Shown here: positions 50,260 through 64,000 of the stretch, piece after piece | Layout of the letters: each line of letters starts with the position of its first letter | Position numbering within the stretch: position 1 is the first letter of the stretch | Origin: Veillonella sp. T11011-6 | GTDB lineage: Bacteria; Bacillota; Negativicutes; Veillonellales; Veillonellaceae | Assembly: GCF_002959755.1 (NCBI RefSeq) | Contig: NZ_PPCW01000005.1 | Span: forward strand, 315,001-379,000 | Direction: 5' to 3' | DNA: 64,000 nt | Notes under the pieces: model-generated | The model's input: only the letters and a program-made list of their open reading frames with translations | What the model was told of the DNA's origin: nothing | Databases searched by the model: none | Program-made: the position numbers and the translations under genes

Positions 50260-50338
50260 ATAGTAAAAGTATATTGCGTAAAATTGATGTGCAAATATAA
50301 ACCTATTAATATGGTTTGTCGCTATAGAGGAATTGTAT

Positions 50339-51682
50339 ATGAAACGATATTTATATTTGACTTTTGCTGTTTTAGGTTTTCTAGGCAGTACCATACCTTA
50401 TGCTGAGGCAGGGAATTTAACAGGTGTACGTGTATCTAATCACGAAGGCACAAGTCGAATTGTATTGGATGTATCTGAAATGCCTGTATCTTGGACTAAG
50501 TCTTATAATGAGTCCACACATGCCCTTACACTTAACCTTGGTGGTACTACAAATGGATTGACGGGTCCTATAGCGCAAAATAATACAAAAACAGGTGTTT
50601 TAAAAGGCATTGGCTTACAACCTGTTAATGGATCTTTGCAAGTAACATTGACGGCTAACAAGGATGTACAACATCATGAATTTACATTGGAGAAGCCATC
50701 GCGTATTGTAGTTGATTTGTTTTCTAGCTATGCTCAACAAACAACAAAGGATGTAAATAAATCTGTTACGTATAGCAAGATTAATAACACTGTATCAGAA
50801 GGCAAAATCCAGGCCTTTGCATTATCTGTGGACAATGATTCACCTATGGTGGTCGCTCATGTTTCGGAAGGTAAACCCTTATCATCTGTAGTTCAATCGC
50901 ATACTGCTATAATTGGCGCAAAGGTAAAAGGTAGTAGTTTTGATCGCCCTTATTCGGTAGCAAGTGATGGAACTATTGATTTAGAGCGTATTTCTAACCG
51001 TGGCACCTTGCGATATACACCAAATCGTGGATATTTTATTGAAGAAAAAAGACCTTTACTACAGGCTAAAACACAGAAGGATACATTCCTGATTACCTCT
51101 GTTAATACAAGTCGTAAAGAAAATGCTTTGACTCTATATACATCAGCGTATGGGGCATCTACAAAGACTAATGACTTTGGATACGAAGTGACTGTTGCTA
51201 ATGGCAAGGTGGTTAGTGGTCAAAAAGGGAATTCTAAAATTGGAGAAAACCAATACGTGTTATCTGGTCACGGAGAATCGCGGGATACATTACGTAAATT
51301 AAAGGTGGGCACACCGATTACGATTCAAAATAGACCGGAGTTGGCACAAGTGAATACCACTGGTGGAGCAGCTTTACAAGCAGGTACTATGGTTTTGAAA
51401 AATGGTAACTATGTAGGTGCTGATGGGACCAATAATAAAGCTCGTAGTTTTATAGGAACTACTAAAGATCATAATTTGGTGGTTCTTACTGTTGATAAAG
51501 CTGGGCTTCAATCCGTAGGGGTTACACAACAAGAAGGGGCTCAACTATTATCCAAACTAGGCGTCGTGGATGGTGCTGAATTATCGAATCAAGGTAGTGT
51601 TGATTTAGTAGTCAATGATACATACGTTCATAAAGCGACTTCAAATCCTACGACCTATGAGGATATTGTAATTATAAAATGA
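50339..51682 (+). CDS. Exported AMIN-domain protein with NAGPA-like C-terminal domain
   Basis: A 447-residue protein with signal peptide (residues 1-22, ending YAEAG). One AMIN domain follows (about 23-125, GVRVSNHEGTSRIVLDVS to SRIVVDLFS), which targets proteins to peptidoglycan or outer-membrane secretins. The C-terminal part (about 290-447) resembles phosphodiester glycosidase (NAGPA) folds: RSFIGTTKDHNLVVLTVD, then EGAQLLSKLGVVDGAELSNQGS. The usual Asp-Gly-Gly-Gly-Ser end of that motif is altered (SNQGS), so activity is doubtful. GAGG precedes the ATG at 50339. It opens the envelope cluster. Confidence 0.7.
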   Translation: MKRYLYLTFAVLGFLGSTIPYAEAGNLTGVRVSNHEGTSRIVLDVSEMPVSWTKSYNESTHALTLNLGGTTNGLTGPIAQNNTKTGVLKGIGLQPVNGSLQVTLTANKDVQHHEFTLEKPSRIVVDLFSSYAQQTTKDVNKSVTYSKINNTVSEGKIQAFALSVDNDSPMVVAHVSEGKPLSSVVQSHTAIIGAKVKGSSFDRPYSVASDGTIDLERISNRGTLRYTPNRGYFIEEKRPLLQAKTQKDTFLITSVNTSRKENALTLYTSAYGASTKTNDFGYEVTVANGKVVSGQKGNSKIGENQYVLSGHGESRDTLRKLKVGTPITIQNRPELAQVNTTGGAALQAGTMVLKNGNYVGADGTNNKARSFIGTTKDHNLVVLTVDKAGLQSVGVTQQEGAQLLSKLGVVDGAELSNQGSVDLVVNDTYVHKATSNPTTYEDIVIIK

Positions 51683-51703: not shown

Positions 51704-51732
51704 TTGAAATATTAGTAATAATTTAGTATACT
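51704..51732 (+). promoter_or_regulatory. Promoter for the miniprotein and following envelope genes
   Basis: TTGAAA, 17 bases, TATACT, 39 bases before the start at 51771. The run of genes from 51771 to 58408 has no clear terminator inside, so this may drive all of it. Confidence 0.7.
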
Positions 51733-51770: not shown

Positions 51771-52055
51771 ATGAAAAGAGTAGTGTTGGCATTAGCTGCT
51801 TTAGGCATTTTAAGTGTTAGCTCTGTAATGGCGGCCCCTGTATCATACCAAAGTGTATTAACAGGTAAAGTTGCTTCTACAGTTTCTGTTGGCTCTGCTG
51901 TAACAGAAGGTCAAACATTGGTAACTGTAGAGACATTGGCTGGCCCTATGGCTGCTGCTAAATCTACTGTAACTGGTACTGTAACGGCGGTTAATGTTAC
52001 AGTGGGCTCAGACGTTTCTCGTGATCAAATCGTTGTCACAGTAGAAAGTAAATAA
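51771..52055 (+). CDS. Exported biotinyl/lipoyl-like miniprotein
   Basis: A 94-residue protein with a clear signal peptide (cleavage after VMAA, about residue 22). The mature 70 residues look like one biotinyl/lipoyl hairpin fold: GKVASTVSVGSAVTEGQTLVTVE, then TGTVTAVNVTVGSDVSRDQIVVTVE. The usual modified lysine (MKM loop) is absent: the loop reads GPMAAAKST. So it is not an ordinary biotin carrier. Such folds also occur in membrane-fusion proteins. AAGGAGG precedes the ATG. It starts 13 bases before the S55-peptidase gene, implying a shared transcript. Confidence 0.7.
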   Translation: MKRVVLALAALGILSVSSVMAAPVSYQSVLTGKVASTVSVGSAVTEGQTLVTVETLAGPMAAAKSTVTGTVTAVNVTVGSDVSRDQIVVTVESK

Positions 52056-52067
52056 AGGAGAGAAGGA

Positions 52068-54074
52068 ATGAAGTTTTCTCATTCTTGGCGTCGGTATAGA
52101 AAAGCGATACTGGCGCTTTTCTTCTGTACTTCACTTACAGCTGCACAGGCTGTTGATTTCATGCCTGTCAATGATGTAACTACAGGTATGGAAGGCATTG
52201 CAAAAACTGTAATTGTAGGAGATACCATTTCTACCTTTGATGTAAAGGTACTTGGTGTCATGAAGGATAAGGGACCATCTGGTCATCTTATTTTAGCGAA
52301 GTTCTCTGGTCCTGTTATGGAAAAAACAGGCGGCATCGCTCATGGCATGAGTGGTAGTCCTGTATATATAAATGGTAAGCTCGTTGGTGCTGTTGCTTAT
52401 GGCTGGGGCTTTGCAGATGGTACGATTGGGATGATTACCCCTATCGAGGATATGGTGAAATTATGGAATATTCCATATGAGAAGAACTTATCCAAACCAT
52501 GGGATGATAAACAATTGATCCCTCTTGGCACGCCACTTATGGCTTATGGCTTTGATGCAGCATCCATGGATTACTTCAAATCCAAGTTGCCACAATATAA
52601 ATATGAAACATATGATACGGCTAGTGCTAGTGGTGATGAAATTGCTAAACCTCTAGAAGCCGGTGGTTCTGTAGCAGCATTACTAGTTGATGGTGACCTA
52701 AAACTGGGGGCCATTGGTACTGTTACCTATGTAGATGGGGAAAAGATTGTTGCCTTTGGTCATCCATTCTTAAAACATGGCTCCTCAAACTACTTCATGC
52801 ATAATGCAAGCATCTTTACAGTAGTTAAAAGTTATGATGCTGCTTTCAAATTGGGCTCTATGGGCAAGGAAGTTGGCTCTGTAACTGAAGATAGAGGTGC
52901 TGGTATTGCAGGTGTTTCTGGTGTGATTTCTCCAGGGATCCCTATGCGATTCCATTTGAAAGACCTTGATATGGGGCGTGATAAAACTAGCTCTGTTAAG
53001 GTTATTGAAGATAGTGAGATGACACCGACTTTAGCGGCTACATCTCTATATAACATGTTGAATAAAACGTTGGATCGTAGTGGCGCTGGTACGGCTACCA
53101 TTTCTTATACAATCACACCAAGAGGTAAAGAGCATAAACCGTTGACGCGAACTAATATGTTCTATAGCTCTGACTCTATCTCTGAGAAGGCTGTTGATGA
53201 GTTCTATAATGTTATCGACGTTCTTATGAATAACCGATTCATTAATTATGAAATTTCTGACATCTCTGTAGAAACTGAGGTGACACAAGATAAGAAAACA
53301 GCTAAGCTTGTTGATGCCTCTGCATCTTCAACCATTGTTTCCCCTGGTGATACAATCGTTGTAGATGTAACGTTGGAGCCGTTCCGCGGTGAGAAGGTCG
53401 TTAAACAAATCTTCTTTAAGGTTCCTGAGGATCAAGCTGTTGGCAAGTATACCTTAGAGGTGCGTGGGGGCGGTGAAATCCCATTACCTTATGTATTAGA
53501 AAAGCAAAAATATAATTTAACTGATGAAATTTTACGTCGCTTAAAAGTTCATAAAGATTTTAATGAACTTTATGATGAAATTCAAAAGACTGATACAAAT
53601 AATCAAATCGTTGTAGAGTTTTTAGAAGATGGCATTAGTCTTGTTGATGAAGATGGTTCCCAATCTGTTAAAAAAGCTAAACTTAAAGATGTGGAATCAA
53701 AACCTATGCCAGGGGATGTAAAGAAAAAAACAGGTCAAGAAGATTTGAGTTCTAGTAAGGACGATGATAATCAAATAGAAAAAACTGCTATTGATACGGA
53801 ATACATCGTTCAAGGTGATGGTCAATTTACAATTCATGTTATGAAACCAGCCGATCGCGATAAAGCATTAGCTAAACGCGTAAAAGAAGTTAAAAATCAA
53901 AGCAAGATGGAACATAAATTAGAATTGGAAGACCAATCCAAAAAGGATAAATCCAGTAAAAAAGATGTGAAAAAGTCTGATAAACAAGATGTGAAAAAAT
54001 CTGATAAACAAGACCAAAAAACACCTGATAAAAAGGATGAATCTAAAGTAAATGATACTAATGCAGCTGAATAA
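52068..54074 (+). CDS. SpoIVB-type S55 peptidase domain protein, exported
   Basis: A 668-residue protein. A basic N-terminus and signal helix (about 11-29, ending AAQAVD) export it. The S55 domain follows: TTGMEGIAKTVIVGDTIS, then GGIAHGMSGSPVYING, whose GMSGS holds the nucleophile Ser (about 95). A VAFGHPFLKHG segment is typical of SpoIVB-like proteins. The middle (about 400-500) looks like a beta-rich domain. The C-terminal 70 residues are Lys/Asp-rich with a repeated DVKKSDKQ unit. SpoIVB is a sporulation signalling protease, but this non-sporulating context points to an envelope role. It lies directly before mlaE. Confidence 0.8.
   Translation: MKFSHSWRRYRKAILALFFCTSLTAAQAVDFMPVNDVTTGMEGIAKTVIVGDTISTFDVKVLGVMKDKGPSGHLILAKFSGPVMEKTGGIAHGMSGSPVYINGKLVGAVAYGWGFADGTIGMITPIEDMVKLWNIPYEKNLSKPWDDKQLIPLGTPLMAYGFDAASMDYFKSKLPQYKYETYDTASASGDEIAKPLEAGGSVAALLVDGDLKLGAIGTVTYVDGEKIVAFGHPFLKHGSSNYFMHNASIFTVVKSYDAAFKLGSMGKEVGSVTEDRGAGIAGVSGVISPGIPMRFHLKDLDMGRDKTSSVKVIEDSEMTPTLAATSLYNMLNKTLDRSGAGTATISYTITPRGKEHKPLTRTNMFYSSDSISEKAVDEFYNVIDVLMNNRFINYEISDISVETEVTQDKKTAKLVDASASSTIVSPGDTIVVDVTLEPFRGEKVVKQIFFKVPEDQAVGKYTLEVRGGGEIPLPYVLEKQKYNLTDEILRRLKVHKDFNELYDEIQKTDTNNQIVVEFLEDGISLVDEDGSQSVKKAKLKDVESKPMPGDVKKKTGQEDLSSSKDDDNQIEKTAIDTEYIVQGDGQFTIHVMKPADRDKALAKRVKEVKNQSKMEHKLELEDQSKKDKSSKKDVKKSDKQDVKKSDKQDQKTPDKKDESKVNDTNAAE
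53964..54011 (+). repeat. Two tandem 24-bp repeats in the S55-protein tail
   Basis: Two copies differing at one base encode DVKKSDKQ twice. Copy number could vary between strains by slippage. Confidence 0.85.
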
Positions 54075-54105: not shown

Positions 54106-54867
54106 TTGAATTGGCTAGAATCGATAGGACGAGCTGTAATGAACGGCCTATCACAGATGGGGAGTGCTACATTATTGGTGTGGCACACAATTAGACAACT
54201 GAAAATGATTAATCTGTGGCATGTGTTTCAGCAGATGGCTCACTTAGGCGTAGATTCGTTGCCGATTATCAGTTTAACGTTACTCTTTGCTGGTGCAGTT
54301 ATGACCTTACAGATTACAGATGTATTGATTACATATGGTGCACAAAGCACTGTAGGTGGTCTTATGGCTGTTGCTATGGGACGTGAATTAGGTCCCATCT
54401 TAGTAGGGGTAGTACTAGCTGGCCGTGTTGGCGCTGCCATCACGGCTGAAATTGGTACAATGAAGGTAACCGAACAAATCGATGCGCTTCGTGTTATGGC
54501 TGTCGATCCTATTGGTTATCTTGTGGTACCTCGTGTAGTAGCATGTATGATTATGGTGCCTATATTGGCGTTTTATGGTGTAGTAATTGGCATTGCAGGT
54601 GGTTACTTTGTGGCTACTGCAATTAAGGGTTTAGCGCCAAGTACCTATTTAGATTCTATTCAAATGTTTTCTACTATTTCAGACTTCACATTAGGCTTAG
54701 TTAAGTCCAGTGTGTTTGGTGCTGTTATTGCATTGGTAGGCTCCTATAAGGGGATGGAAACTAAAATGGGCGCAGAAGCCGTAGGCTTCTCCACAACTAG
54801 TTCTGTAGTAACTAGTATTATTTTAGTATTTGTATTAAATTACTTTTTGTCTACTTTGTTATATTAG
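54106..54867 (+). CDS. mlaE: MlaE-family permease of the phospholipid ABC transporter
   Basis: A 253-residue inner-membrane permease. GRELGPILVGVVLAGRVGAA and EIGTMKVTEQIDALRVM are the strongly conserved MlaE motifs; five helices are predicted. It forms the channel for lipid movement between the membranes with MlaF (ATPase) and MlaD. The start is TTG at 54106, nine bases after AAGGGGAAAGGG; the first ATG lies 11 codons on. Order mlaE-mlaF-mlaD is tight. No MlaB or MlaC gene is present. Confidence 0.93.
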   Translation: MNWLESIGRAVMNGLSQMGSATLLVWHTIRQLKMINLWHVFQQMAHLGVDSLPIISLTLLFAGAVMTLQITDVLITYGAQSTVGGLMAVAMGRELGPILVGVVLAGRVGAAITAEIGTMKVTEQIDALRVMAVDPIGYLVVPRVVACMIMVPILAFYGVVIGIAGGYFVATAIKGLAPSTYLDSIQMFSTISDFTLGLVKSSVFGAVIALVGSYKGMETKMGAEAVGFSTTSSVVTSIILVFVLNYFLSTLLY

Positions 54868-54887: not shown

Positions 54888-55646
54888 ATGATAGAACTAC
54901 GCGATGTTGTAGTTGCCTATGAGTCACGTGTGATTTTAGACTCCATTAATCTTACCATTAATGATGGGGAGACGTTGGTTATATTAGGCGGTAGTGGTAG
55001 TGGTAAAAGTACATTGCTTCGCTTATTAATAGGCTTGCAGCGTCCTACATCGGGACAGATTATTGTAGATGGCACAGATATTACAACATTATCTGAAGAT
55101 GAATTTAATACAGTACGAAGAAAGATGGGGATGGTATTCCAATACTCTGCTCTGTTTGATTCTATGTCGGTAGGTGAAAATGTAGGCTTTGGTTTACGTC
55201 AACATACGGACTTAGGCGACGATGAGATACGACGCATTGTAGCAGAGCGACTAGATTGGGTCGGTTTGAAAGGGTATGAATCCTATATGCCTAACGAATT
55301 GTCAGGCGGTATGAAAAAGCGCGTTAGCTTAGCTCGCGCCATAGCGCTAGACCCAAGCTTAATCCTCTATGATGAACCTTCATCCGGCTTGGATCCTATT
55401 ACATCTGGTACGATTAGTATGCTAATTAAGGGGATGCAACAACGGCTTGGTTGTACTTCTATTGTAGTAACACATGATATGCAATCCGCGTTTTACGTGG
55501 CAAATCGCATAGCTTTACTTGATAAGGGGAAATTTGTGGAAATTTCTGATACAATAGACTTTAAGAATTCTACAAATAAAAAGGTACAACAGTTTATTCA
55601 TGGTGAAGCAGAACCAATTAATGTATCTGCGATGGGAGATGTGTAA
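54888..55646 (+). CDS. mlaF: MlaF-family ATPase of the phospholipid ABC transporter
   Basis: A 252-residue ATPase with Walker A GGSGSGKST, signature ELSGGMKKRVSLARAI and Walker B LILYDEPSSGLDP. The GMKKR form of the signature is characteristic of the MlaF/Mkl group. It powers lipid transport through MlaE. Its stop overlaps the mlaD start (TAATG), and GAGGGA precedes its ATG. Confidence 0.94.
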   Translation: MIELRDVVVAYESRVILDSINLTINDGETLVILGGSGSGKSTLLRLLIGLQRPTSGQIIVDGTDITTLSEDEFNTVRRKMGMVFQYSALFDSMSVGENVGFGLRQHTDLGDDEIRRIVAERLDWVGLKGYESYMPNELSGGMKKRVSLARAIALDPSLILYDEPSSGLDPITSGTISMLIKGMQQRLGCTSIVVTHDMQSAFYVANRIALLDKGKFVEISDTIDFKNSTNKKVQQFIHGEAEPINVSAMGDV

Positions 55647-56905
55647 TGAAGTGGACGACGGAGGCCAAGGTAGGGGCTTTCACAATAATAGGTATAGCTC
55701 TATTTATTGCGGGAATACTTTTTGTAGGTCGCATTGATATATGGGCTAAGCCACAAATGACGATTACTGGCGATTTTGCTCAAGTTAATGGCCTAAAAAA
55801 TGGCAATCAAGTTAAATATTCAGGTGTGGCCATCGGTAATGTCTCTGATATCGAGATTACTCCGCATGGTGTTGTAGTAAAAATGAAGCTTGATGAAAAA
55901 ACACAAATTCCAAGTGATTCTACGTTCACATTGGGATCAGATGGTTTTTTAGGTGATAAATTTATTCAAATTTCACCAGGTCAATCTAAGGTGTTTTTAC
56001 AAGATGGTGACTCTGTTAAGGGCGAAGGTGCAGACGCTATGGATAAAGCGATGCAAAGTGCTCAAAAGTTAATGGATGGCACCGAAAAAATGTTGCAATC
56101 TATCAATAATATTATTGGTGATCCAGCAACGCAAAATGCACTTAAACATTCCTTGCAATCTACTGCGACGATGGCTGATAATGCTGTAGCGATTACACAA
56201 AATATGGCTGATGTAACGGCACAGCTAAATCAAGCTGCTCAACAATTTAATGCAGATGGTAATGCAGGCAATGATATGCGTGCTATTTTGACTAACTTAA
56301 AACAAACTACGGATCGTGTAGATAATATGGCTCGTTCTATGGAGTCTACTGTAACTGATCCTAAAGCACAGGAAAATATTAAGGAAACATTACATAATAC
56401 GGCACAGATTTCAGCTCGCATCAACAAATTGATGGGTGGTAAAGCATATCAAACTGATGCAAGTGGAAATGTAGTAGATGGAAATAATGTTGAAAAAAAG
56501 TCATCTACTAAAGTTGAGCCTTCTGTAGATTTGTTATATAACACAACAGATGATGAATTCCGCATCAATGGTCGTGTTCGTGCTTATAATGATAAAGGTA
56601 TGGCTGAGCTTGGCCTTTCCAATATCGGCGATGGCACTAAATTCGATTTAAATGCAGGTCGATTCATTAGCTCTAAATGGCTAGTACGGGGCGGTATTTT
56701 TGAAAGTGAATTAGGACTTGGCGTTGACTATAATTTACGTGGTCCAGTTTCATTATCCGCAGCGGTATATGACCTTAACAATCGCAAATATCGTATTCGT
56801 AGTGATATACGTTTACATAAAGATACTTATGGGGTTATTCAAATGACCAGACCGTTCGGTTCCACGAATGGTGGTACCTACTTTGGTATCAAACAAGTAT
56901 TTTAA
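55646..56905 (+). CDS. mlaD: MlaD: MCE-domain protein with C-terminal outer-membrane beta-barrel
   Basis: A 419-residue protein, over twice the length of E. coli MlaD. One N-terminal membrane helix (about 9-28) is followed by an MCE domain (about 35-115, GDFAQVNGLKNGNQVKYSGV), a long helical region (about 130-265), a polar linker, and about 130 residues of alternating beta strands (FRINGRVRAYND to YFGIKQVF) ending in Phe, the outer-membrane barrel signature. Known work on Veillonella parvula describes MlaD of this design as bridging both membranes. This explains the lack of MlaA, MlaB and MlaC here. Confidence 0.92.
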   Translation: MKWTTEAKVGAFTIIGIALFIAGILFVGRIDIWAKPQMTITGDFAQVNGLKNGNQVKYSGVAIGNVSDIEITPHGVVVKMKLDEKTQIPSDSTFTLGSDGFLGDKFIQISPGQSKVFLQDGDSVKGEGADAMDKAMQSAQKLMDGTEKMLQSINNIIGDPATQNALKHSLQSTATMADNAVAITQNMADVTAQLNQAAQQFNADGNAGNDMRAILTNLKQTTDRVDNMARSMESTVTDPKAQENIKETLHNTAQISARINKLMGGKAYQTDASGNVVDGNNVEKKSSTKVEPSVDLLYNTTDDEFRINGRVRAYNDKGMAELGLSNIGDGTKFDLNAGRFISSKWLVRGGIFESELGLGVDYNLRGPVSLSAAVYDLNNRKYRIRSDIRLHKDTYGVIQMTRPFGSTNGGTYFGIKQVF

Positions 56906-56947: not shown

Positions 56948-58408
56948 ATGAATAAAAAGGTTTTATCCTTAGGTGTAATGCTCTCCTTAGCTACTACAGG
57001 TGCAATGGCTGCTGATGTAGTTACAACTTCCGTTAATAATGGAGACCAATTAAGCAAATATCAAAAAGAAGCGATTCAATTAACACAAAAGCAATTAGCC
57101 GAAAAATCTGTTCAAGATAGTAAAACATATGAGAGCAAATTGGACCTCGATGAGACTCGTACCATAGAGTTGGCGTTGGCGAATAACCGTACAGCAAAAC
57201 AAACTAAATGGGGCTATGAAGCTGCTAAATCTGCAGTGAGCCAAGTAGCAGCAGGCAAGAACCCTAGTGTAAGCTATGGTTGGTCTGCTCAAAAAACAGG
57301 CGGTGACACTGGCCGTGGTAAATCTGGTAGTCATAACTTCTCCATTAGTGCTCCTGTATTTAATCCTCAACTCGATGCAAGTATTGATTCTGCACGTTAT
57401 ACTCGTGAAGGCACTGGCGCTAGCTATGAAGAAGCATTGCAACAAGCAAAATATGATGCTATTAGTGGCTACTATACATTGATCATGAACCGTAATCTTG
57501 TTGATGTGGCTCAACAAGCTGTTAAAGATTACCAAGGTCATGTAACAAATGTGCAAGCTCAATATAATGTTGGTTTGGTAGCAAGTTCTGATGTATTGGC
57601 TGCTAAAACAAATCTTGCTGATTCTGAAACAAATCTTGTAAAAGCGCAAAATTCTGCAAATTTAGCAGAGGCTAGCTTGAATCAAGTCATTGCATATCCT
57701 GCACAAACAGCTATTAATACAGCAGAACATGACTTACAATATAAACCTTACAATATTACGTTGGAACAAGCTAAAGCATATGCTTTGCTTCACCGTTCTG
57801 CCCTTGTAAAATCTGCTCTCGATGTAAAATCTGCAGAAGAGGCTGTAAAATCTGCTAAATCTGGCTACTTGCCAACTGTAGCTGTAAAAGCTGGTCGTGG
57901 TTATGCCGATCCAGATGGTTACTTTGGAACAAGTACAAAATCCTGGAGTGTAGGTGCTACTGCATCTTGGAGCTTATGGGATGGCGGTGCAACACAAAAT
58001 GCTATTAAAAAAGCAAATGCACAACTTGAACAAGCGAAAGAGGCTAATTTAGCTACTGTTGATGCTGTATTATTAGCAGTACAAAAAGCATACTTGAATT
58101 TGCGTTCTGCAGAGCAAACAATCCAAAGCACTCAAACTGCAGTTGCTCAAGGTCAAGAAAGCTTCCGTATTGCTACACTTCGCTATCGTGCTGGTGTTGG
58201 TACAAACCTTGATGTACTCGATGCGGAAACTAAATTAACAGATGCTCGTAATAACTATGTACAAGCTCTTTATAATTACAATATTAGCATTGCAGCTCTT
58301 GAACAATTGACAGGTGTTCCATTGAATACTCCAGTTGGACAAGGTGCAGAAATTATTGCAAACAGTGGTGCAGCTGAACAATTAGCACAACTTGGTGGCA
58401 ATCAATAA
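56948..58408 (+). CDS. tolC: TolC-family outer membrane efflux protein
   Basis: A 486-residue protein with signal peptide (about 1-22, ending GAMAAD) and two outer membrane efflux repeats (about 45-250 and 260-465). Each repeat has long helices with conserved strands (SVSYGWSAQKTG; LPTVAVKAGRGYAD). SFRIATLRYRAGVGTNLDVLDAETKL is the typical OEP C-terminal helix. It forms the trimeric outer-membrane tunnel for efflux pumps or type I secretion; no inner-membrane pump partner is in this window. The start at 56948 follows GGAGG. A terminator follows. Confidence 0.93.
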   Translation: MNKKVLSLGVMLSLATTGAMAADVVTTSVNNGDQLSKYQKEAIQLTQKQLAEKSVQDSKTYESKLDLDETRTIELALANNRTAKQTKWGYEAAKSAVSQVAAGKNPSVSYGWSAQKTGGDTGRGKSGSHNFSISAPVFNPQLDASIDSARYTREGTGASYEEALQQAKYDAISGYYTLIMNRNLVDVAQQAVKDYQGHVTNVQAQYNVGLVASSDVLAAKTNLADSETNLVKAQNSANLAEASLNQVIAYPAQTAINTAEHDLQYKPYNITLEQAKAYALLHRSALVKSALDVKSAEEAVKSAKSGYLPTVAVKAGRGYADPDGYFGTSTKSWSVGATASWSLWDGGATQNAIKKANAQLEQAKEANLATVDAVLLAVQKAYLNLRSAEQTIQSTQTAVAQGQESFRIATLRYRAGVGTNLDVLDAETKLTDARNNYVQALYNYNISIAALEQLTGVPLNTPVGQGAEIIANSGAAEQLAQLGGNQ

Positions 58409-58420
58409 TAGAATACTAAA

Positions 58421-58448
58421 AAAGACGACTTCGGTCGTCTTTTTTTTG
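58421..58448 (+). terminator. Terminator after tolC
   Basis: AAAGACGAC, TTCG loop, GTCGTCTTT, within an eight-T run. The stable UUCG tetraloop makes this a strong terminator. Confidence 0.93.
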
Positions 58449-58663: not shown

Positions 58664-61600
58664 ATGACCCGTAAAAAGTGGTGCCTCATAGGGGCTGCAA
58701 TTTTAGGCTTATCTGCAGTTGGTGCTAGTATAAACCCTATAGCTCAGACCTATGTAGCACCTATGGTTAAAGAACAAGTAAATAATGCCATAAACGGATC
58801 TGTGGACTATGATTCTCTTCGTATCAATTGGAATGGTGATGTAGTTTTATCAGATGTGGTGATTAAAGATCGGGATGGTCACTTAGTAGGGACGGCGCAA
58901 GATGTAGCCGTTGGGGTTAAACTATCTGCATTACCAAGTATAATTGGGGGTAATACATCAGGGGCAACAGCTATATCGACTGTTACTGTAGAGGCACCTG
59001 ATCTTCATATATGGCAATTGAACGATGGATCTTGGAGTATAGAAAAATTAGTAAAACCATCTGATCCGAATAAATCGGGTGGTTTTGATGGTGATATTAC
59101 CATTAATAATGGCCATGTAGCGCTACGTACTAAAGATGGCATTAAACGCAATGTTGAAAACCTTGATGGTACCGTTGCTCTTAATATGAGTGGTATGTCT
59201 AAAGGGGCTTTTACTGCAGATATAGATGGTTCCTCTGTTCTTGTAAATGGCAACATTGATATGGATCATGTATCTAATTTCGATCTCTTTGTGCAAGCAG
59301 ATGAAATTGATACGGCAGGTATCATGAGTTTTATACCGCTTCGTAAAGATTTGTCAGTAACGGGTGGGAAATTACAAGACTTACATCTCAATATTAAAAG
59401 TGAAGATGGCCAATATGTTATGAGTGGCAATGTAGGCTTTAAAGGCTTAACGGGGACTTATAAACGGAGCAATACGCTTTATACGATTACCAATGGTGAA
59501 GGTCGTATTATGTTGAATCACGACCAAATTGTTATTAGTCATAGCTCTTGGCGTATTAATGATCAGGAAGCAAAGCTTAATGGTCTCATTACATTGGGAA
59601 AAGACGAAGAGTATTTAAATCTTAATGTTGTAGCCGATAAGGTGGATTTAGAAGCTATTACTGATGTAGGGGTTACTGGTATTGTTGGCGGTCGTGCGCA
59701 TATAGGAGGCACTACTGTAGCGCCTCGCGTAGACGCAACAATAGGTAGTGATGGTATTTCTTATAAAGGATATCATGTGGATCGCGTTCAAGGAAATGTG
59801 GTATACGATAATGGATTAGTTCGTATCGATGATGCCCAATTGTCTATTGGTGCTGGTAATGCTAAAGTCAAAGGTCAATACGTTGTAGATACAGGTGATT
59901 TTGACGCTATTGCCAATGTAAATGCATTATCGTTGGATACTTTTACAAAAGATTTAGCTATGCCTATTAGTGGGACCGTTGATGGTGAAATTCACGCTTT
60001 AGGGAAGAATAATCAACTTACAGATCTTGTGGGAGCGGTCCAAGGTCATCAGATTGGTGTACGTGGTGTAGTTCTAGACTCTGTAAAAGCGGATTTGACC
60101 CATAGTGATAATCTTACCAACATAACTATGGTAGGCAATATGGGAACGGGTTCCTTTAGTGGATATGGTTCTATTCAAAATGGCCAAGTGGATGCCACAG
60201 TTTCTGGTAATGCCTTGCCGTTGACATCACTTAGTCCAATCATAGGTGAAGATGTAGCTGGCACAGTTAGCACTTCTATTAATGTAAAAGGTGCCTTAGA
60301 TAACCCTAATGTGATTGGAACCGTATGGGGACAAGAGGTTCTCTATAAGGGGGCTCACTTTAATGATATTCATAGCGATATCAATCTAGATAATCATATT
60401 CTAACAATAACCAATGGTCATATTGGTGATGGTAGTGGCGGTTACGATATTACCGGTTGGTATAATATCAATACTGATGCATTAGATTTAAATGCTAAAG
60501 CTCGTGCTGTACGTATTGAAAATTTAATTCGTCCTGTAACAGATATTCCTATTACAGGTTGGTTTGAAACTGACAACCATATAACAGGGACTATTGCTAG
60601 TCCGATTGTAGAAGGGCGAGCTCATTTATGGGATGGGTCTGCCTATGGCAAGCTTATTACTAATGCTTTTGCCAAATACAACTATAAAAATGAAACATTA
60701 GAATTATATCGCTTTGATATCGAAGGTTACGGTGCAACTATTACTGGTGGCGGTACTGTATCAAAAGAAGCTATTAATATTGATTTTGAAGGTAAGAAAA
60801 TCGATATGGGTAGATTGCTCATCAATACCGATTATAAGGTGGATGGTTTACTAGCAGGCCGTGGTACTATAACGGGTTCCATGGATAACCCTCAGTTTAA
60901 TGGCTATATTTTATCAGATGCTTTATCCATTAATGGACAGCTATTGACGGATATTCATGGCCATGTTTATGCCGATAAGTCTGTTGTAAATGTACAAGAT
61001 TTTTCGTTTGCTGAATCGAATGGTGGTCGTTATGTTGCTAAAGGTGGCATGAAGCTTGACGATAGCAAACAATTATTTGGCGTTTTAGATGTTACCAATG
61101 GTAGTGTAAAGAACTTATTGGCTTTATTAGATCGAGCTGATGAGCACCTCGATGGTCAATTAAATGGCTCTGTTGAAATTGGAGGTACGAAGGACAATCC
61201 AAGTGTTATTGTAAATGGTAAAATTAACGATGTTAGCATTGATGATAAGGTAGTAGGGGATGCAACAATTGATGCTAGCCTAGCTAATCGTAAGTTTAAA
61301 ATTACCACTTTAAAACTACCTGTTGGTGAGGGCCTCATTGCTATGGGTGGTACTTTGGATCTCGATGGGCAAGCTGATTTACAAGTAGCCTTAAAGGATG
61401 TCGACATAGTGCCATTCTTACCACTTGTAGGTAAGGATATTCAAGCAACAGGCTGGGTAACAGGTGTTGTGAATGTTACTGGAGAAACTAAAAATCCTAA
61501 GGTGGAATTATCTGGTGCAGTAGAGTCCGGTTCGTTCAATGGAATTGGTATTGATGAAGGCTTTGCGTTGGCTACAATGCAAGATCATGTCATTCAAATC

Positions 61601-62950
61601 CAACGTATTCAAGGCGCTAAAGGAGGCTATAAGCTCAGTATTTATGGTAAAATTCCATTGGCGGCTCTTTATACATCTGGTTATTTAGAAGCTAGTGATG
61701 CTAAATCTATGGATGTAACAATTGACTTTAACGAAGCAGATATGGCTGTTATTCCTCTTGTTACTACTAGTGTTAAAGATGCAACGGGGCCGTTAAAGGG
61801 TGCAATTAGGCTTACAGGGACTATAGACCAACCTGAGGCATACGGCACAGTATCTGTACGTAATGGTACTATGAAATTGGCCAATGTAGATAATGAAATT
61901 ACTGGTATTGACGGAGATTTAATCTTCTCTGGACAACAAGGGGATTTCCAATCTCGTATCAATATGGGGAAAGGTAGTGCTGGTTTAGCTGCTAAGGTAA
62001 ATTGGTCTGGTCATGAGCTTACCAACTATAAGGCTGCCGTTCAACTTGATGGACTCGATGTTCGTAGCGAATATGTGAGAGGCCCATTAAATGGTGAACT
62101 TTACATTGCGGAACGTGATGGATTACCTACCTTGATAGGTAATTTGGACCTAGAAAACATCCAATTTAAGATTCCTCTTTCCTTGCAGTCTAGTGAAAGT
62201 AGCACCAACATGGGTGTAGATGTTAATATTCATGCTGGCAAGGGCGTACGCTTATATGATCGAACTCTATATAACATGTTTATCGGTGGTGATGTTCATT
62301 TCGGTGGCACATTACAAAACCCAACTGCTAGTGGCCAGTTCGATGTTAAATCTGGTACGTTCAAATACTTAAGTCATGTATTTAATATTACGAAGGGGAA
62401 TGCACACTTTGTAGGTGGTTCCTATTTACCAAACTTACAATTAGAGGCTGAAACGAATGTAAGCAACTACAATATTATGCTTGGTGTAAAAGGGACTGTA
62501 GACCATATGGATCTTACTTTGTCGTCTAATCCTAGTTTGTCTAGAAAGCAAATTATTTCCATGTTAACCTTTGGTCGTGGTGCAGATTCAAATAGTAGTA
62601 CATTGACAAATGATGATGTGAATGCTGTTGCTACAGCAGGTTTACAAATGTTTGCCTTTGGCTATGTGCAAGATGCATTGCAAAATACATTAGGTTTAGA
62701 TCGGATTAATATTACGACAGGTTCCATTGATCCTGATGAACCAACTAATAGGGCAACAGCAGGTAATTACAACATTGAAATTGGCAAATATATTGTGCCA
62801 AAAGTTATGCTTACCTATTCTCAAGGTATCAATAATAAACAAAATAAATATGGTGTGGAGTATTCTGTTAAACGAAACCTTAAATTCACTGCATGGCATA
62901 CATCGCAAGGGAACAATTATATAGGCGGCCGTTGGACAAGAAGCTTTTAA
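58664..62950 (+). CDS. tamB: TamB-like AsmA-family protein (translocation and assembly / lipid transport)
   Basis: A 1428-residue protein with one N-terminal membrane helix (about 7-25), then some 1100 residues of repeating beta strands (units such as GTVDGEIHALGKNN, GSVEIGGTKDNPSVIVNG). These would form the long hydrophobic groove of TamB/AsmA proteins. The C-terminal 350 residues are the TamB (DUF490) domain, with LTLSSNPSLSRKQIISMLTFG and ending GGRWTRSF with a terminal Phe. Such proteins span the periplasm and carry phospholipid or help Omp85 barrels. GGGAG precedes the ATG. The BamA-type gene follows, as in the diderm Firmicute outer-membrane clusters. Confidence 0.92.
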   Translation: MTRKKWCLIGAAILGLSAVGASINPIAQTYVAPMVKEQVNNAINGSVDYDSLRINWNGDVVLSDVVIKDRDGHLVGTAQDVAVGVKLSALPSIIGGNTSGATAISTVTVEAPDLHIWQLNDGSWSIEKLVKPSDPNKSGGFDGDITINNGHVALRTKDGIKRNVENLDGTVALNMSGMSKGAFTADIDGSSVLVNGNIDMDHVSNFDLFVQADEIDTAGIMSFIPLRKDLSVTGGKLQDLHLNIKSEDGQYVMSGNVGFKGLTGTYKRSNTLYTITNGEGRIMLNHDQIVISHSSWRINDQEAKLNGLITLGKDEEYLNLNVVADKVDLEAITDVGVTGIVGGRAHIGGTTVAPRVDATIGSDGISYKGYHVDRVQGNVVYDNGLVRIDDAQLSIGAGNAKVKGQYVVDTGDFDAIANVNALSLDTFTKDLAMPISGTVDGEIHALGKNNQLTDLVGAVQGHQIGVRGVVLDSVKADLTHSDNLTNITMVGNMGTGSFSGYGSIQNGQVDATVSGNALPLTSLSPIIGEDVAGTVSTSINVKGALDNPNVIGTVWGQEVLYKGAHFNDIHSDINLDNHILTITNGHIGDGSGGYDITGWYNINTDALDLNAKARAVRIENLIRPVTDIPITGWFETDNHITGTIASPIVEGRAHLWDGSAYGKLITNAFAKYNYKNETLELYRFDIEGYGATITGGGTVSKEAINIDFEGKKIDMGRLLINTDYKVDGLLAGRGTITGSMDNPQFNGYILSDALSINGQLLTDIHGHVYADKSVVNVQDFSFAESNGGRYVAKGGMKLDDSKQLFGVLDVTNGSVKNLLALLDRADEHLDGQLNGSVEIGGTKDNPSVIVNGKINDVSIDDKVVGDATIDASLANRKFKITTLKLPVGEGLIAMGGTLDLDGQADLQVALKDVDIVPFLPLVGKDIQATGWVTGVVNVTGETKNPKVELSGAVESGSFNGIGIDEGFALATMQDHVIQIQRIQGAKGGYKLSIYGKIPLAALYTSGYLEASDAKSMDVTIDFNEADMAVIPLVTTSVKDATGPLKGAIRLTGTIDQPEAYGTVSVRNGTMKLANVDNEITGIDGDLIFSGQQGDFQSRINMGKGSAGLAAKVNWSGHELTNYKAAVQLDGLDVRSEYVRGPLNGELYIAERDGLPTLIGNLDLENIQFKIPLSLQSSESSTNMGVDVNIHAGKGVRLYDRTLYNMFIGGDVHFGGTLQNPTASGQFDVKSGTFKYLSHVFNITKGNAHFVGGSYLPNLQLEAETNVSNYNIMLGVKGTVDHMDLTLSSNPSLSRKQIISMLTFGRGADSNSSTLTNDDVNAVATAGLQMFAFGYVQDALQNTLGLDRINITTGSIDPDEPTNRATAGNYNIEIGKYIVPKVMLTYSQGINNKQNKYGVEYSVKRNLKFTAWHTSQGNNYIGGRWTRSF

Positions 62951-63127: not shown

Positions 63128-64000
63128 ATGTTTAAACCAAAAGCCTATAAAAGTATGCTTGCAGCATCTGTGTTGACTGCTGTCATGGGGACAGGCAGTG
63201 TATTTGCTGCGGAGGTACAAGCTGGCTATACTCCAGATTTAAATAACACAACAACAACTAGTGCAGCAACTACTAATGATTCTACTACTACACAAGCAGT
63301 TTACAATGCTAATGCGGCTACATCTGCAACAACACAAGATGAAACTGATGCAGCTATCTTAGCGGCTCGTGGTGATACAACTGTATCTAGCGATGGTACT
63401 GTAGTTAAAGGTTCTGATGGAACTGTTACAGTTAATAATGCTGCTTTGAAAACAGATGATAAACAAGTAAAAATGGTGTCTAAAACTACTGGTGGTACTG
63501 ACCTTGATAAGGCTGCTGAAAATGGCCAAACTCAAGCTGTTACAACTGTAGAGGCTCAATATGTTACATCTGCAAATGCAGAGTCTATTAATCCATATGT
63601 AGGTAAATTGATAACTGGTTTATCTATTTCTGGCGTAACAGCTGAACAACAAGCACAACTATTGCCAATCTTAACAGAAAAAATCGGCGATGCTGTGTCC
63701 GTTGATGGTGTATTTAAAGACGTAACTAACCTAGGTAATACTGGCTACTTCTCTGAAGTAAACCCTGTATTCACTACAGTACCTGAAGGGGTTAAATTGG
63801 ACTTTGCTGTCACAGTAAATCCAATTACTACAGGTGTAGCTTTCGAAGGCAATACAGTTTATACTTCTGAAGTATTGACTAAGTTCATGGATATTCAACC
63901 AGGTCAAGTTCTTAACTCTGTATACGTAGGCCAAAAAGTTCAAGGTATCAACGCAGCATATGCTCGTGATGGCTATATGTTGGCACATGTAGATGGTATT
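63128..64000 (+). CDS. bamA: Omp85/BamA-type outer membrane assembly protein, 3' end beyond window
   Basis: The frame is open from the ATG at 63128 to the last base (291 residues seen). A signal peptide (about 1-27, VMGTGSVFAAE) is followed by a Thr/Ser/Ala/Asn-rich, low-complexity stretch to about residue 115. POTRA-like domains follow (about 155-225, LITGLSISGVTAEQ; then ITTGVAFEGNTVYTSEVLTKF, typical of the POTRA strand-helix pattern). The barrel lies outside the window. BamA inserts beta-barrel proteins in the outer membrane. AGGAGG precedes the ATG. With tamB upstream, BamA is likelier than TamA, but both remain possible. Confidence 0.82.
   Translation, partial: MFKPKAYKSMLAASVLTAVMGTGSVFAAEVQAGYTPDLNNTTTTSAATTNDSTTTQAVYNANAATSATTQDETDAAILAARGDTTVSSDGTVVKGSDGTVTVNNAALKTDDKQVKMVSKTTGGTDLDKAAENGQTQAVTTVEAQYVTSANAESINPYVGKLITGLSISGVTAEQQAQLLPILTEKIGDAVSVDGVFKDVTNLGNTGYFSEVNPVFTTVPEGVKLDFAVTVNPITTGVAFEGNTVYTSEVLTKFMDIQPGQVLNSVYVGQKVQGINAAYARDGYMLAHVDGI

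Follow-up and report, generated by a model that had tools for sequence, protein, structure and literature searches.

A putative serine protease with an apparently permuted S55 domain in the outer-membrane gene cluster of Veillonella and other diderm bacteria

The sporulation peptidase SpoIVB of Bacillus subtilis (MEROPS S55; PDB 9lnf) is the closest solved relative of the protein described here. Asp363 or Thr393 has been suggested as its third catalytic residue (PMC12502668). A gene of the same family, Vpar_0521, has been described in Veillonella parvula DSM 2008, where the gene order is Vpar_0519 (DUF2233), Vpar_0521 (SpoIVB domain), Vpar_0525 (TolC), Vpar_0526 (TamB) and Vpar_0527 (BamA/TamA) (PMC5491611). 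The Vpar_0521 protein was recovered from outer-membrane and surface-exposed fractions, was assigned an N-terminal SpoIVB domain and a DUF1090 domain, was flagged as a priority protein of unknown role, and was noted as conserved in diderm Firmicutes (PMC5491611). The window analyzed here is the whole 64,000-nucleotide stretch of Veillonella sp. T11011-6 (contig NZ_PPCW01000005.1, positions 315,001 to 379,000). It carries a gene that is almost certainly the orthologue of Vpar_0521, in the same gene order (PMC5491611). All features below lie on the forward (+) strand of the window.

The S55-type gene and its predicted domain architecture

The gene (positions 52068 to 54074) begins with ATG and, as read from its open reading frame, encodes a predicted, probably permuted S55-type serine protease of 668 aa belonging to the Vpar_0521 family. 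It is the single S55 match in this genome. Its N-terminus, MKFSHSWRRYRKAILALFFCTSLTAAQA, is of the Sec type and has no lipobox. From the sequence and an AlphaFold helix at residues 4–23, the signal peptide is predicted to span approximately residues 1–27 (52068–52148; predicted cleavage site). The AlphaFold model of the full protein has a pLDDT of 87 and a pTM of 0.82.

The Ser barrel, approximately residues 28–141 (52149–52490), corresponds to the C-terminal half of PF05580 and to SpoIVB residues 311–422. It contains GMSGSPV at residues 93–99, of which GMSGSP (residues 93–98; 52344–52361) includes Ser95, at the position of SpoIVB Ser378 and the predicted nucleophile from its conservation in 74 sequences. 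The predicted His barrel, residues 192–316 (52641–53015), matches the part of the SpoIVB peptidase domain that lies N-terminal there, its first half, and, modeled separately, reaches a pLDDT of 94.6. Its FGHPF motif (residues 230–234; 52755–52769) contains the predicted catalytic base His232, aligned to SpoIVB His236, and Asp210 (52695–52697) is an invariant acid common to canonical SpoIVB, aligned by eye with Asp213 of B. subtilis. In the AlphaFold model, strand-rich, well-predicted C-terminal domains follow (53016–53600). The remainder (53600–54071) is made up of a low-confidence linker, a short folded segment (approximately residues 570–592), a long helix and a charged tail, as judged from the model and the family alignment. 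The tail contains only two exact DVKKSDKQ units, with a pLDDT of about 40, and is lineage-specific, present in close relatives only. The proposal in the preliminary description that this tail binds wall or lipid A phosphates was rejected, the tail being absent outside close relatives and predicted to be disordered.

The window protein matches Pfam PF05580 (Peptidase_S55) with an E-value of 4.5e-11 and 43.6 bits, against a gathering cut-off of 25 bits. Together with the Sec-type N-terminus, this bears out the S55 signature and export signal first noticed in the sequence. The match covers only model positions 109–209 of 210, that is, the Ser half, and lies at the protein N-terminus; in all eight relatives scanned it is likewise N-terminal and restricted to the Ser half (model position ~107 onward). 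The NCBIfam SpoIVB equivalog TIGR02860 scores 43 bits, below its curated cut-off of 305, over model positions 312–397 of 402 only. No PDZ family was found by Pfam at E ≤ 1 in the window protein or at E ≤ 0.1 in the eight relatives. By sequence comparison the closest solved relative is SpoIVB (9lnf), again over the Ser-containing part only, and 9lnf is also the top Foldseek match of the full model. VIA-align places model residues 28–136 onto the second barrel of 9lnf (residues 311–422; Z 7.1, 106 residues, 29% identity), and the Ser barrel also matches HtrA-type proteases with Z up to 8.0. Homology of the Ser half with that of SpoIVB is, at the level of sequence, shown computationally. The suggested third residues of SpoIVB, Asp363 and Thr393, align by eye with Ser80 and Ala110 and are not kept; column 110 is Ala, Ser or Gly only across the 74 family sequences. 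Proteolytic activity of the family is a prediction, and no report of such activity for any member was found in the literature.

The two halves appear to occur in reversed order relative to SpoIVB. The His motif comes first in SpoIVB, whereas in the window family the Ser part (residues 28–141) precedes the His part (approximately residues 192–300). The Ser half of SpoIVB, used as a profile, matches the family N-terminus only (E down to 6e-21). The corresponding profile for the His half of SpoIVB, built from 42 sequences, gives its sole peak at family residues ~175–320 (E 6.7e-5), with His on His, and all other family regions give E-values of about 0.01 or worse. An earlier comparison with a shallow SpoIVB profile had been weak (P 0.013), and the deeper profile resolved the match. 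When the halves are rejoined in the SpoIVB order, a single continuous alignment of 186 columns is obtained; the native order gives two separate alignments. For the isolated His barrel, 9lnf ranks first in Foldseek, though weakly (E 0.14). VIA-align gives middling Z scores for this barrel, mostly to second barrels of other PA-clan proteases and with 9lnf not listed, and its placement is limited by the resemblance of PA-clan second barrels to first barrels. Circular permutation of the two-barrel S55 domain relative to SpoIVB is strongly supported by these profiles and models, not proven, and the His-half match is moderate. The permutation would explain why no more than half an S55 domain shows up in annotation. 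For chymotrypsin-type proteases, a natural rearrangement of this kind throughout a large family would be unusual.

Gene neighborhood in the window and in Negativicutes

Upstream of the S55 gene lies a gene for an AMIN and NAGPA (phosphodiester glycosidase) protein (50333–51682; profile match), which also adjoins S55 in diderm Firmicutes that have no Mla genes. It is followed by a promoter-like site, TTGAAA-17-TATACT (51704–51732; consensus match only), and by a gene for an exported miniprotein of 94 aa (51771–52055), separated from the start of S55 by 12 bases. Pfam and further comparison point to a biotinyl/lipoyl-like fold without a modifiable Lys. Downstream, mlaE starts with TTG 31 bases after the S55 stop (54106–54867), a spacing that agrees with the one first reported. 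It is followed by mlaF (54888–55646), a long form of mlaD (55646–56905; PMC10665443) and a tolC homologue (56948–58408), all assigned by profile match. A sequence scan located a terminator-like hairpin 3′ of tolC (58418–58445). The next genes are tamB (58664–62950; profile match) and a BamA/TamA-like gene that runs past the window end (63128–64000, start only), its probable identity taken from its position and from the literature (Vpar_0527). The strong hairpin between tolC and tamB suggests that tamB is transcribed separately.

The order NAGPA, miniprotein, S55, mlaE, mlaF, mlaD and tolC recurs across the 40 loci compared in Negativicutes, which represent about 30 families. A homologue of the S55 gene is present in 148 of 150 Negativicutes genomes, and in about 117 of the 141 that could be resolved, from tables read by eye, it lies directly 5′ of mlaE. 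Most exceptions belong to one family (f13; named relatives Selenomonadaceae), where mla is located elsewhere and S55 precedes murA in the loci read. The same linkage was found in a single Synergistales locus (L081), and mlaE linkage was seen in these two groups only.

The miniprotein resembles the lipoyl domain of membrane fusion proteins, is encoded beside mlaD and tolC, and is near-universal 5′ of S55 in Negativicutes. Some Selenomonadaceae-like genomes lack it, and the matches obtained beyond Negativicutes were all weak. In the five genomes tested in which mla lies elsewhere (G043, G084, G075, G140 and G141), the miniprotein gene has remained beside S55, which argues against its being a part of Mla.

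The neighborhood also bears on a signaling role, in which the protein, like SpoIVB, would cut a membrane-anchored regulator and, through regulated intramembrane proteolysis, inform the cytoplasm of the condition of the envelope. The nearest solved relative works in this way in sporulation (PMC12502668). However, the identified neighbors are structural envelope genes, and no regulator or site-2 protease gene was seen as a conserved direct neighbor among the genes that could be named. Together with the lack of a PDZ match, this makes signaling unlikely.

Distribution outside Negativicutes and relation to sporulation

Across 81 Bacillota genomes, MlaE is present in 4 and the permuted S55 form in 18. 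MlaE is absent from 14 of these 18 genomes, as well as from 9 of 25 other genomes carrying the S55 gene. Omp85/BamA, by contrast, is present in all 18, and in 15 of them S55 lies 2.5–14 kb from omp85. The association of S55 with Omp85 has a Fisher p of 4e-16, a value that ignores shared ancestry and is not taken as a probability here. Of the Bacillota loci, 14 were read; most have the order (NAGPA), S55, TamB and BamA, the usual one in diderm Firmicutes that have no Mla. Since S55 adjoins TamB-BamA in these Mla-less loci and mlaEFD-tolC sits between S55 and TamB in Negativicutes, TamB-BamA appears, from gene order, to be the older partner of S55 in Firmicutes.

These distributions weaken a Mla-specific role, in which the protein would be an accessory dedicated to processing or regulating the MlaEFD phospholipid transporter. 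The position directly 5′ of mlaE in most Negativicutes and in the Synergistales locus favors it. Yet MlaE is missing from many carriers, most Selenomonadaceae-like genomes keep mla elsewhere, and a 2023 V. parvula study that does not mention the S55 protein describes MlaEFD as a minimal system (PMC10665443). We regard dedication to Mla as quite unlikely. The preliminary description had tied the S55 protein, the miniprotein and MlaEFD together in the diderm envelope. The linkage within Negativicutes and the envelope role are supported; the specificity for Mla is not, with only 4 of 81 Bacillota genomes containing MlaE and S55 tracking Omp85 in 18 of 18.

Members of the permuted family are about 600 aa long and occur in many diderm phyla. 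A search of genome contigs gave 496 relatives, and the 80 best, which were retained, include sequences from Acidobacteriota, Latescibacterota, Gemmatimonadota, Aminicenantes, Poribacteria, Myxococcota, Bipolaricaulota, Armatimonadota, Synergistota, Brachyspira, Limnochordia and others. The control genomes of E. coli, Caulobacter, Synechococcus and Bacteroides gave no PF05580 match, and the permuted S55 form is therefore not universal among diderms. In a quick tree, Firmicutes and Bipolaricaulota are placed apart from Acidobacteriota and allies, with the Firmicutes sequences grouped (support 81), a pattern that agrees with long vertical descent. The gene directly 3′ of S55 in 40 loci of other phyla encodes a secreted protein, about 700 aa long, with beta-propeller and Ig-like domains (e.g., L128:4392-6446 and L098:4066-6264). 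In one Armatimonadota protein of 1,313 aa (L091:106-4044) S55 and the propeller/Ig part are fused. In Bipolaricaulota the gene next to S55 looks, by sequence, like murF. A Brachyspira locus (L136:7884-13197) has three tandem permuted-S55 genes followed by a propeller gene.

In the alignment of 74 permuted sequences from many phyla, Ser95 is kept in 73, and G93, M94, G96, S97, P98, His232 and Asp210 are each kept in all 74. FGH, like GMSGSP, varies little or not at all; together with the homologues in 148 of 150 Negativicutes genomes, this conservation goes beyond chance. One relative (L083:7851-10040) carries GMGGSP, where Gly replaces the catalytic Ser, and is possibly inactive. The large conserved C-terminal domains, the propeller/Ig protein that accompanies S55 or is fused to it in other phyla and this Ser-to-Gly member would fit a chaperone or scaffold that has a protease fold but does not cleave, perhaps one that helps outer-membrane proteins or TamB to fold. 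The retention of Ser95 in 73 and His232 in 74 of the 74 sequences speaks against such a function, which we consider quite unlikely.

Canonical SpoIVB was read from tables in 69 of the 81 Bacillota genomes, the permuted form in 18 and both forms in 15. Ten Negativicutes genomes also hold a full-length SpoIVB gene plus the permuted gene; that they form spores was deduced from the presence of SpoIVB and from relatives with known names, Sporomusa among them. Because both forms coexist in the same genomes, the permuted gene is, on gene content, not a sporulation relic. The idea that SpoIVB had been reused in this non-spore-former was rejected in view of this coexistence and of the wide spread of the permuted form: spore-formers have a separate canonical SpoIVB, and the window family is permuted, without PDZ and far more widespread.

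Proposed role and comparison with known systems

The export signal, the conserved Ser and His, the clustering with outer-membrane genes and the co-occurrence with Omp85 are shown computationally. With these features, the protein is probably a Sec-exported periplasmic (or outer-membrane-associated) serine protease with a permuted S55 domain, conserved in the outer-membrane cluster of diderm Firmicutes and acting on the assembly machinery. Its chain would run from the Ser barrel (GMSGSP, Ser95) through a linker to the His barrel (FGH, His232) and the strand-rich domains. The cluster comprises NAGPA, S55, TamB and BamA in this order, and Negativicutes also have the miniprotein 5′ of S55 and mlaEFD-tolC 3′ of it. 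The putative protease would most likely trim or degrade, in the intermembrane space, some protein of the machinery for outer-membrane assembly or of the lipid bridge, much as SpoIVB works between the two forespore membranes. The initial observation was right and its envelope guess right in outline, and its Mla and SpoIVB readings were mostly wrong.

More tentatively, the permuted S55 protein may be an ancient diderm envelope-assembly enzyme inherited with the outer membrane, with SpoIVB as its sporulation-specific sister and both working between two membranes. If this doubtful scenario were true, the protease of the sporulation checkpoint and that of outer-membrane assembly would go back to a common ancestor and differ by a circular permutation, and the envelope-assembly protease would have a beta-propeller partner in other phyla. 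Within Firmicutes, the permuted S55 family is a marker of the outer membrane; lying before TamB-BamA, it is a candidate missing part of outer-membrane assembly outside Proteobacteria. Genetic work is feasible in V. parvula, for which mla and tamB mutants are available.

The system had been called undescribed. That does not apply to the gene itself, Vpar_0521 having been flagged in the outer-membrane proteome (PMC5491611), and it does apply, as far as literature searches show, to the permutation, the cross-phylum spread, the TamB-BamA neighborhood and the propeller partner. No literature report of the family's permutation, spread or neighborhood was found, nor any use of the name "peptidase S55" for the permuted family, and a Veillonella biofilm transposon paper contains nothing on the S55 gene. 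The Vpar_0521 paper describes no permutation, no spread beyond diderm Firmicutes and no neighborhood logic (PMC5491611). The MlaEFD system of V. parvula (PMC10665443) is encoded by adjacent genes in Negativicutes, but the S55 protein is not named as a component in that study and is found where Mla is absent. The HtrA/DegP periplasmic proteases share PA-clan barrels, a structural match to the Ser barrel and a place in envelope quality control; they differ from the window protein in barrel order and in having PDZ domains, and show no close sequence relation to it. SpoIVB differs in the order of its halves, its PDZ domain, the extra C-terminal domains of the window family and the Asp363 and Thr393 that the window family does not conserve. 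The window family also occurs in non-spore-formers, and beside canonical SpoIVB in spore-formers. The likeness to SpoIVB lies in the homologous Ser barrel with GMSGSP, the GH motif in the other half and the predicted action between two membranes. The finding is also relevant to the connection that has been proposed between sporulation and the outer membrane.
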